A DNA stretch of 20,496 bases, taken from a virus. Positions 15,680-17,681 of this stretch are shown piece by piece. The stretch spans positions 1 to 20,496 of the IMG/VR virus record IMGVR_UViG_3300025085_000248. One strand, given 5' to 3'. The translations under genes were made by a program, and so were the position numbers. The notes under the pieces were generated by a model that saw only the letters and a program-made list of their open reading frames with translations, was not told where the DNA came from and did not search any database. Each line of letters starts with the position of its first letter. The first letter of the stretch is position 1.

Positions 15680-15880
15680 ATGAAAGTAAGTGAATACAGA
15701 GAACAAATGGCTGAAAGAGTTGCTGTTATAGAAGCTCAAGTAATTGATATTTATCACGATATTAAAGAAATTAAAGAATTAGTTAAAGAGCAAAATGGTA
15801 GAGTACGTACCAATGAACAAAACATTGCACGTATTACTGCTGTTGGTATGGTAATAGCAATTTTATTAGGAATATTATAG
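15680..15880 (+). CDS. XhlA-like membrane protein with C-terminal anchor (66 aa)
   Basis: This 66-residue protein has a charged heptad-repeat helix from about residue 8 to 50 (VAVIEAQVIDIYHDIKEIKE, then RVRTNEQNIARI) and ends in a hydrophobic segment, AVGMVIAILLGIL, that can span a membrane. The layout, coiled coil plus C-terminal transmembrane helix in a 65-90-residue protein, matches the haemolysin XhlA/phage holin-accessory type, which sits at the inner membrane and helps lysis. The Shine-Dalgarno is AGGAA. The next gene has the reverse layout, a membrane segment near the N-terminus and a coiled coil after it. The role in lysis is inferred from topology and location; no endolysin is seen nearby. 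Confidence 0.65.
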   Translation: MKVSEYREQMAERVAVIEAQVIDIYHDIKEIKELVKEQNGRVRTNEQNIARITAVGMVIAILLGIL

Positions 15881-15889
15881 GGGATAACA

Positions 15890-16186
15890 ATGGAAGTAAA
15901 CAAAGATAGTAAGTTTACTCTAAGTATAGAGACTGCTATAAGTATAGCTGTTTCAATATTTATGGTAGTAGGTTTATGGTTTAATTTGCAAGCTGATATA
16001 GAGGAAGCTAAAGCATTACCAGAACCTCCTGTAAGTAGAACAGAGTACGACTTAAAAGACCAAATGATTCGTAATAGTATTATGAATACAGAAGATAAAG
16101 TAGAGGCACTTGAAGATAAGGTAGATGATATTAAAGAAGATACCAGAAGCATCAATGAAACTTTACTTAACATGAATAACAATTAG
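15890..16186 (+). CDS. Small membrane protein with C-terminal coiled coil (98 aa)
   Basis: A 98-residue protein has one hydrophobic segment near the N-terminus (ETAISIAVSIFMVVGLWFNL, residues about 13-32), then a short Pro-rich linker (LPEPPVSRTEY) and a C-terminal charged coiled coil, EDKVEALEDKVDDIKEDTRS, to the end. There is no lipobox cysteine, so it is not a lipoprotein o-spanin. It follows the XhlA-like gene by nine bases and has its own site (AGGGGA). A holin, antiholin or i-spanin-like role is possible; such single-pass proteins are typical of phage lysis cassettes. The two could interact through their coiled coils. I do not recognise a named family. Confidence 0.65.
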   Translation: MEVNKDSKFTLSIETAISIAVSIFMVVGLWFNLQADIEEAKALPEPPVSRTEYDLKDQMIRNSIMNTEDKVEALEDKVDDIKEDTRSINETLLNMNNN

Positions 16187-16194
16187 GATGGATT

Positions 16195-16575
16195 ATGCAA
16201 AAGTTGATAAGTATGTGGTTATTGGGACTTGGGTTATTTACCTCGTCGCTATATTCGCAATCAGTATCTTTGGATAGTTTTCAGCAGATACAAGCATTAA
16301 ACATACATAAGTGTGCAGTAGTGCAAGTAAATGCGTCTTGGAACTATCAAAATAGAGTTAATCTAACACAACTGAATAACTTGTGTTACATTGCAGAAAT
16401 AGATATTGAAAATAAAACAGTTGGTGCTGTAATAGTAAAAGAATGGAGCATAGATATAGTTCCTACTATTATAGTATTAAAAGAAGGCGTAGAAGTAAAA
16501 AGATTTGAACCTGGTATTTCTATGAGTTTTGATGAAAAAACTATTATAGAAAGTATTAGGAAAGAAGTTAGATAG
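16195..16575 (+). CDS. Secreted thioredoxin-fold protein lacking the CxxC motif
   Basis: Residues 1-21 form a signal peptide (basic start, LLGLGLF core, cleavage likely near SLYS-Q), so the 126-residue product probably works in the periplasm or outside the cell. The remainder follows the thioredoxin pattern: strand AVVQVNASW (41-49), the position of the active site, strand CYIAEIDIE (64-72), helix, then VPTIIVLKEG (89-98) with the cis-proline P90 and the strand VKRFEPG. The active-site Trp-Cys-Gly-Pro-Cys is replaced by Trp49-Asn-Tyr-Gln-Asn53, so thiol-disulfide exchange by the usual route is impossible. Cys40 and Cys64 are the only cysteines and might form a structural disulfide. It follows the two membrane proteins by nine bases with an AGGATGG site. 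A chaperone-like or binding role is inferred; the fold call is fairly strong, the function unknown. Confidence 0.75.
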   Translation: MQKLISMWLLGLGLFTSSLYSQSVSLDSFQQIQALNIHKCAVVQVNASWNYQNRVNLTQLNNLCYIAEIDIENKTVGAVIVKEWSIDIVPTIIVLKEGVEVKRFEPGISMSFDEKTIIESIRKEVR

Positions 16576-16592
16576 GTGTTATATTAGACATC

Positions 16593-16733
16593 ATGCGTAA
16601 AGTATTCGGAAATAATGCTAAAAAACACAGCAATGGAAAGAAGAAAACACGTCAAGGAATGTCTAATAATACCAAATACGGAACTAAAACTAGTAGTAAA
16701 TACTATAAAAAGAAAAGTAGAGGACAAGGATAA
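16593..16733 (+). CDS. Tiny basic protein (46 aa)
   Basis: A 46-residue ORF, MRKVFGNNAKKHSNGKKKTR and onward to KKKSRGQG, is about one third Lys/Arg with no Asp or Glu. Its stop codon overlaps the next start as TAATG, linking it to the basic-protein cassette. The upstream site is weak (AGGTG about 15 bases before). Repeats of NTKYGTKTSSKYYKKK suggest a disordered, nucleic-acid-binding or ribosomal-protein-like character. The closing Tyr-Lys-Lys-Lys...Arg-Gly-Gln-Gly pattern is one I remember from other marine phages, which supports that it is real despite its size. Confidence 0.68.
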   Translation: MRKVFGNNAKKHSNGKKKTRQGMSNNTKYGTKTSSKYYKKKSRGQG

Positions 16734-17017
16734 TGGCTAGAAAAAAAGATTCAAGACTTACTAGAGCTGGTGTATCAGGTTATAATAAACCTAAACGTAC
16801 TCCTGGTCATCCTACTAAATCGCACGTAGTAGTAGCTAAAGTAGGAACACAAGTAAAGACTATACGTTTTGGTCAACAAGGCGTTAGTGGTGCTGGTAAA
16901 GCTCCTAAAACAGCAGCTGGTAAAGCACGTAGAAGAAGTTTTAAAGCAAGACACGCTAAGAATATAGCTAAAGGCAAAATGTCTGCAGCATATTGGGCAA
17001 ATAAAGTTAAATGGTAA
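16733..17017 (+). CDS. Conserved basic phage protein (94 aa)
   Basis: The 94-residue protein opens with SRLTRAGVSGYNKPKRTPGH and PTKSHVVVAKVG, then TIRFGQQGVSG, a basic Ala/Lys/Arg stretch, and RRSFKARHAKNIAKGKMSAA with YWANKVKW at the end. I recognise this as a short family widespread in marine phages, usually annotated as a protein of unknown function; from memory it may correspond to DUF6321, but I cannot confirm the number. The C-terminal Ser-Phe-Lys-Ala-Arg-His...Tyr-Trp-Ala block is the most conserved-looking part and could bind nucleic acid. It starts at a TAATG overlap. Its function is not known. Confidence 0.85.
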   Translation: MARKKDSRLTRAGVSGYNKPKRTPGHPTKSHVVVAKVGTQVKTIRFGQQGVSGAGKAPKTAAGKARRRSFKARHAKNIAKGKMSAAYWANKVKW

Positions 17018-17029
17018 AAGGAGGGCATT

Positions 17030-17260
17030 ATGCCACAAGGTAAAGGAACATATGGTAGTCAAGTTGGTAGACCATCAAAGAGAAAGAATAGTACCGACAA
17101 TTATGCACAAACACAAAGAGGCAAGGGACAGAATAGTACAGACAATATGAATGATGGACCTATTGATAAGAAGTTAACACCAAAACAACGTAAGCTTCCA
17201 AAACAATTAAAAGAAGCTATTTTAAAAGGTAAAAGAGATAAAAATAAATCGAGTATTTAA
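17030..17260 (+). CDS. Small basic hypothetical protein (76 aa)
   Basis: A 76-residue protein follows an excellent AAGGAGGG site. It begins MPQGKGTYGSQVGRPSKRKN, has an Asn/Thr/Gln-rich middle with two NSTDN copies (about residues 20-24 and 35-39), and ends in a probable helix LTPKQRKLPKQLKEAILKGK followed by a basic tail. The MPQGKGTYGSQVGRP opening is a common start of small marine phage proteins as I remember them. The stop codon overlaps the next start as TAATG. No domain can be named; a nucleic-acid-binding or packaged role is only a guess from charge. Confidence 0.78.
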   Translation: MPQGKGTYGSQVGRPSKRKNSTDNYAQTQRGKGQNSTDNMNDGPIDKKLTPKQRKLPKQLKEAILKGKRDKNKSSI

Positions 17261-17442
17261 TGCCAAAGAAAGCTAAATCAAAAGTAAATCAAGCTGGTAA
17301 CTATACTAAGCCATCAATGCGTAAACGATTGTTTCAAGTAATTAAAGCTGGTAGTAAAGGGGGAAGGCCTGGACAATGGTCTGCTCGTAAAGCACAAATG
17401 CTTGCTAAACGATATAAAGCAGCAGGTGGAGGTTATAAGTAA
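17260..17442 (+). CDS. Conserved basic phage protein with GQWSARKAQ motif (60 aa)
   Basis: The 60-residue protein is short and very basic: SMRKRLFQVIKAGSKGGRPG followed by QWSARKAQMLAKRYKAAGGG and Tyr-Lys. The motif Lys-x-Gly-Ser-Lys-Gly-Gly-x-Pro-Gly-Gln-Trp-Ser-Ala-Arg-Lys-Ala-Gln is one I recognise as a conserved element found in many marine phages and, from memory, in proteins of large eukaryotic viruses (a DUF5872-like domain; number unconfirmed). Two helices separated by the GGRPGQW turn would make a compact basic fold. Both ends are TAATG junctions with neighbours. The function is unknown. Confidence 0.85.
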   Translation: MPKKAKSKVNQAGNYTKPSMRKRLFQVIKAGSKGGRPGQWSARKAQMLAKRYKAAGGGYK

Positions 17443-17681
17443 TGGCATTAGCTAAGTCACAACAGAGTTTAAAAAAGTGGACTAAGCAAAAGTGGGGAAC
17501 AAAGTCTGGTAAAAAGTCATCAGAAACTGGTGAACGTTATTTACCCGATGCTGCAATTAAAGCATTAAGTGATAAAGAATATGCAGCTACTACACGTAAA
17601 AAAAGAAAAGATACTAAAAAGGGAAAGCAACATTCTAAGCAACCTAAAAAAGTAGCTAAGAAAACAAAAGCTTATAGATAA
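17442..17681 (+). CDS. Conserved basic phage protein (79 aa)
   Basis: The 79-residue protein reads KSQQSLKKWTKQKWGTKSGK near the start, then ERYLPDAAIKALSDKEYAAT and TRKKRKDTKKGKQHSKQPKK to the end. The Trp-Thr-Lys-Gln-Lys-Trp and Gly-Glu-Arg-Tyr-Leu-Pro...Ala-Ile-Lys-Ala-Leu-Ser blocks belong to a conserved small family I recognise from marine phages and, less certainly, from large DNA viruses; it often lies beside the preceding GQWSARKAQ-type protein. A central helix (LPDAAIKALSDKEYAAT) is flanked by basic arms. It begins at a TAATG overlap and ends the tightly coupled part of the cassette. Function unknown; nucleic-acid contact is inferred from charge. Confidence 0.85.
   Translation: MALAKSQQSLKKWTKQKWGTKSGKKSSETGERYLPDAAIKALSDKEYAATTRKKRKDTKKGKQHSKQPKKVAKKTKAYR

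Follow-up and report, generated by a model that had tools for sequence, protein, structure and literature searches.

Here, we report that a late gene of an uncultured phage encodes a small thioredoxin-fold protein, TRX, in which both catalytic cysteines are replaced by asparagines that never vary in its family, and that this gene is always paired with one upstream gene, TM15890, for a predicted membrane protein with a coiled coil. The gene lies in a 20.5 kb virus record, analyzed over its whole length (the window), which is a phage fragment with genes for terminase, portal, major head protein, and tail fibre. Our preferred and still tentative reading is that TRX may be a periplasmic module for binding, not for redox chemistry, that cooperates with a membrane-anchored coiled coil, probably during envelope disruption or lysis. 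Thioredoxin folds without CxxC are already known; here, two invariant asparagines take the place of the cysteines and are tied to one predicted membrane partner. The family is a large and diverse set from uncultured marine phages, offers a clean system for asking how a redox groove turns into a fixed binding site, and may point to an unrecognized function, in lysis or at the envelope, of common marine phages that have no visible o-spanin.

Table 1. Features of the TM15890–TRX region of the window (fractions out of 135 refer to distinct TRX coding sequences)
Feature	Position	Strand	Basis
66-aa protein, coiled coil and C-terminal transmembrane segment, holin-like by architecture only	15680..15880	+	Sequence; relatives near 17/166 cassettes
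TM15890, 98 aa, predicted N-terminal transmembrane helix, LPEPPVS linker, C-terminal coiled coil	15890..16186	+	Sequence; linkage to TRX
TRX gene, thioredoxin-fold protein, probably secreted, 126 aa	16195..16575	+	One ATG ORF; AlphaFold2 fold; 332 homologous loci
Signal-peptide-like residues 1-21 of TRX, ahead of invariant Q22	16195..16257	+	Sequence; Q22 135/135; position 21 S or A
TRX Cys40 codon, start of strand 40-46 before the active-site loop	16312..16314	+	134/135; AlphaFold2 strand
TRX W49-N50-Y51-Q52-N53, Asn-x-x-Asn at the CxxC position	16339..16353	+	Profile alignment; family conservation
TRX Cys64 codon, just before strand 65-70	16384..16386	+	135/135; AlphaFold2 strand
TRX V89-P90-T91, predicted cis-Pro loop of the thioredoxin groove	16459..16467	+	135/135; corresponds by alignment to VPT/MPT/LPT in thioredoxins

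Fold and active-site positions of TRX

The initial annotation had proposed a secreted thioredoxin-fold protein with both catalytic cysteines lost, and its numbering of W49, N50, N53, C40, C64, and P90 is exact in the translated ORF. Structure prediction and fold search agree with the proposed fold. The AlphaFold2 model, built on a 36-sequence family alignment, has a mean pLDDT of 84 with 80 residues at 90 or above and low values in the signal-peptide region, and its elements follow the thioredoxin order. Thioredoxins are the top Foldseek matches of this model in the PDB (E 1.8e-6, with 320 matches at E<=1e-3), and VIA-align places it on thioredoxins with a Z of 14.2 and an rmsd of 1.8 over 101 aligned residues. 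Judged by its predicted fold and its cis-Pro loop, TRX is a member of the thioredoxin superfamily. When the family profile was aligned to the PDB (best E 0.0025), W49 fell on the Trp of WCxxC and P90 on the cis-Pro of thioredoxins, which puts N50 and N53 on the positions of the two catalytic cysteines; the cis geometry of P90 itself would follow from homology. In a viral structure library the top match was a nameless protein, 55% identical. A match to the NgoMIV restriction enzyme family (PF09015, E 7e-4, below the cut-off at 19.3 bits) was rejected, the predicted fold being clearly that of a thioredoxin.

TRX shares with thioredoxin (PF00085, TIGR01068) the fold, the Trp before the active-site loop, the cis-Pro loop, and the strand order; unlike thioredoxin, it has an invariant NxxN, a signal-like N-terminus, and no CxxC, and TRX-type proteins score only 12-19 bits against cut-offs of 23.5 and 96.8. 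For the protein of the window the values are 13.2 bits (PF00085, cut-off 23.5) and 14.3 bits (TIGR01068, cut-off 96.8). With neither the motif nor a score above the curated family cut-offs, TRX does not have the sequence features of a redox enzyme. The PF00085 cut-off was passed by none of the 20 records carrying a TRX-type protein, and when 20 large contigs were searched for a separate, canonical thioredoxin, PF00085 matched the TRX-type protein alone.

Scans of viral contigs kept, for each query, the best 80 loci and could therefore overlook strongly diverged members, among them any with CxxC; 334 places with TRX were obtained. At the motif 332 of them are readable and the other two are end-truncated fragments; Asn is found at both positions in 332/332, which answers, for all detected phage homologues, the question raised earlier of whether they lack CxxC. 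These readable loci hold about 170 distinct sequences, with identity down to 43%, and 125 distinct complete proteins share the motif WN[YWH]xN[RK]. Viral contigs were also searched by pattern, with one codon choice, for a family member with CxxC, and the matches listed were ordinary phage thioredoxins only. Codon usage speaks to the same positions: in 135 distinct TRX coding sequences N50 is encoded by AAT in 91 and AAC in 44, N53 by AAT in 71 and AAC in 64, and replacements are zero, while position 52, between both asparagines, is highly variable. Invariant residues under free exchange of AAT and AAC mean that selection holds both asparagines. We also considered TRX as a thioredoxin in decay, drifting since its function was lost, and rejected this, as the change at N50 and N53 is synonymous only. 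P90, C64, and Q22 are present in all 135 of these sequences and C40 in all except one; V89, T91, R103, M110, F112, N46, and A47 are further invariant residues.

The N-terminal segment has a hydrophobic core, a [SA]-Q boundary, and, in most family members, a positively charged n-region. Inspected in this way, the segment makes the export suggested earlier likely. No relatives of TRX were found among 50,697 phage records, in cultured phages, or in two scans of cellular species genomes, collections that may lack records close to that of the window, and neither TRX nor TM15890 received an assignment from PADLOC or NCBIfam. A description of the family was not found in the open-access texts searched.

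TM15890 and the cassette neighborhood

The gene directly upstream was missed in the initial annotation, and this obligate partner is the strongest clue to how TRX works. Members of the TM15890 family have one predicted transmembrane helix and a conserved linker, LPEP[PE][VI]SR, and the AlphaFold2 model, of low confidence (pLDDT 68), has helices at residues 13-42 and 50-97. The protein would sit in the inner membrane with its N-terminus in and its C-terminus out. Variability at the three codon positions (0.12, 0.05, and 0.27) indicates that this strand and frame is coding. Opposite TM15890 there is a long open antisense frame (window 15754-16182, - strand), seen likewise in relatives L342 and L345, and the sense-strand variability suggests that it is a by-product. 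The linker of the window's protein (residues 43-49) resembles LPEPPMVS in the T7 o-spanin gp18.7, which may be coincidence.

The pairing of the two genes is well supported as gene linkage. TM15890 is directly upstream of TRX in 248/248 loci with room, TRX is next in 320/320 places when the search starts from TM15890, and, duplicates removed, the pair is kept in 167/167 distinct cassettes with room. The gap between the genes is almost always 5-19 nt. Between two TRX clades the alleles of both genes have in part been reassorted, and neither gene was seen alone. Their distances correlate at r=0.34, with at most 0.06 reached in 500 permutations. The two products may form a physical complex. TM15890 is without Cys in 127/130 pairs; the two cysteines of TRX look intramolecular.

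Both in relatives and in the window itself, the cassette comes after fibre or adhesin genes, and its other neighbors (fibre, phrog_7595, phrog_17747, phrog_14910, and phosphoesterase) move or go missing. As for the lysis-type genes that the initial annotation placed nearby, relatives do carry them, a 3TM holin and also a GH108 endolysin, at distances of up to about 1.5 kb. We counted markers, i.e., the 3TM holin, GH108, and the 66-aa holin-like protein of the window, in the 166 distinct cassettes that have 2.5 kb of sequence downstream: the holin is near 48 cassettes, GH108 near 25, both near 19, and any of the three near 70, and the probes used recognized no lysis gene near the remaining 96/166. 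At least 25 cassettes are followed by the GH108 endolysin at a distance of 0.7-1.5 kb, and 19 of them also have the 3TM holin. The 66-aa protein itself gave no confident family match.

In both copies on record G003 (L348/L349) the order is TM15890, TRX, small basic genes, GTA_holin_3TM (E 9e-13), and a GH108 endolysin that carries PG_binding_3 (E 1e-25); in L345 (record G004) a 3TM holin follows the cassette. In L348, the endolysin frame (2119-2754) includes a hydrophobic stretch on the N-terminal side of MEFNE and in frame with it; this may be a signal-anchor endolysin or else an artefact of an upstream start. In the window, 16733-17017 is phrog_7595, a basic protein of unknown function common to Roseobacter phages, cyanophages, and HMO-2011, which often, not always, adjoins the cassette. 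The small Lys/Arg-rich phrog_17747 and phrog_14910 (17260-17442 and 17442-17681) travel together near the cassette and stand before the holin in L348/L349.

A lipobox scan of the 19 lysis loci and the window, the contigs being fragments, found no o-spanin lipoprotein: the first settings gave 0 candidates, and relaxed settings, which recovered the controls lambda Rz1 and T7 gp18.7, matched an internal endolysin piece only. Please note that 91 of 677 phages in one survey have no detectable spanin, so a missing o-spanin is weak evidence.

Possible roles of the pair

In the reading we prefer, TRX would carry out no redox chemistry, and the substrate groove of thioredoxin, its two cysteines replaced by N50 and N53, would be retained as a fixed site of binding. 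It would most likely be periplasmic and act with TM15890 as an inner-membrane coiled-coil protein with a Pro-rich linker, and the pair, which belongs to the late gene block, would most likely serve the last envelope-disrupting or lysis-controlling step. It stands at the usual place of two-component spanins, and a soluble thioredoxin-fold partner would there replace the outer-membrane lipoprotein.

Two-component spanins (lambda Rz/Rz1, T7 gp18.5/gp18.7) resemble the pair as predicted here: their genes are adjacent, encode first an inner-membrane coiled-coil protein and then its exported partner, and belong to the late lysis module or lie close to it. The sequence of TM15890 and its two modeled helices would fit an i-spanin, at the low pLDDT given above and with a predicted topology. 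Adjacency in every distinct cassette, with markers near 70/166, fits a spanin pair. However, the spanin partner is an outer-membrane lipoprotein, whereas TRX is a folded thioredoxin domain without lipobox or outer-membrane anchor and is thus no canonical o-spanin. Cysteines are common in spanins (at least one in one partner in 507/528 two-component spanins of one survey), and TM15890 almost never has one. It also speaks against a spanin-like lysis role that most cassettes, the 96/166 above, have no recognized lysis gene close by and that the neighborhood of the cassette is a tail-fibre neighborhood too. The bolder proposal, a new class of lysis pair in which a redox-dead TRX replaces the o-spanin lipoprotein and its NxxN groove grips the Pro-rich linker of TM15890, seems to us improbable.

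Loss of the catalytic cysteines has a parallel in conjugation. TraF and TrbC of the F plasmid are thioredoxin-fold proteins without CxxC (PMC10939261) that work within an envelope-spanning machine, as TRX may do, and TraF binds a periplasmic partner, TraH (PMC7555446). Unlike them, TRX is the product of a phage late gene, a single small domain with an invariant NxxN, and no sequence match was found; Pfam scans, which could miss distant homology, gave no TraF family match.

Three other accounts were weighed against the envelope or lysis role. The pair may provide superinfection exclusion or envelope immunity, TM15890 holding TRX in the periplasm, where it would act against a second phage by blocking either its tail lysozyme or the entry of its genome. 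T4 Spackle is reported to be a periplasmic inhibitor that blocks the gp5 lysozyme (PMC7677548), and TRX is also a small and probably exported phage protein; it has a predicted inner-membrane partner and lies beside fibre genes in the window, and one relative encodes a tail lysozyme (PF18013). Spackle, though, is the early product of a single gene, whereas TRX belongs to a pair in the late structural and lysis block, where holin and endolysin genes lie in the same line, and its groove residues are invariant, although some diversification might be expected of an inhibitor that targets rival phages. We regard exclusion as rather unlikely.

A role in assembly or in the virion, with TRX as a non-redox chaperone or structural module for tail or fibre assembly or for periplasmic genome ejection, we would call unlikely. 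The position of the cassette after fibre or adhesin genes suits it, and there are precedents in the T7 polymerase, of which host thioredoxin is a structural part, and in F TraF, a thioredoxin-fold assembly factor without CxxC; but a signal peptide would take TRX out of the cytoplasm, the site of virion assembly, its obligate partner is a predicted membrane protein, and lysis genes flank the pair in many genomes. We found no evidence that TRX acts on fibre disulfides or as a general chaperone, both suggested earlier. The observation of the initial annotation is confirmed, and its interpretation is partly supported. That C40 and C64, with their near-complete conservation, cycle between disulfide and dithiol in place of CxxC is very improbable: in the model they map to the starts of two neighboring parallel strands, away from the CxxC position, and not to a helix N-terminus by the cis-Pro; C40 is missing in one member, and a structural disulfide between them, which is plausible, is the simpler account.

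Host signals and repeated cassettes

In Bacteroidetes, Q is found at +1 after signal-peptide cleavage (PMC5837995), and the invariant Q22 of TRX, following [SA], would be this residue after cleavage and fits the rule. A Bacteroidota host is left unproven by it, since in their Shine-Dalgarno use (4-mers 0.70-0.73, 5-mers 0.38-0.54) the window and two large contigs resemble pelagiphage HTVC010P (0.64/0.32) and not Cellulophaga phage phi38:1 (0.21/0.11).

Several contigs of 50-70 kb carry two diverged copies of the cassette with its flanks, at about 79-85% DNA identity and tens of kb apart. They are represented by L348/L349 (record G003:C1, 1-4000 and 31000-36000), L321/L324, and L319/L326, and may be chimeric contigs or phages with two modules.
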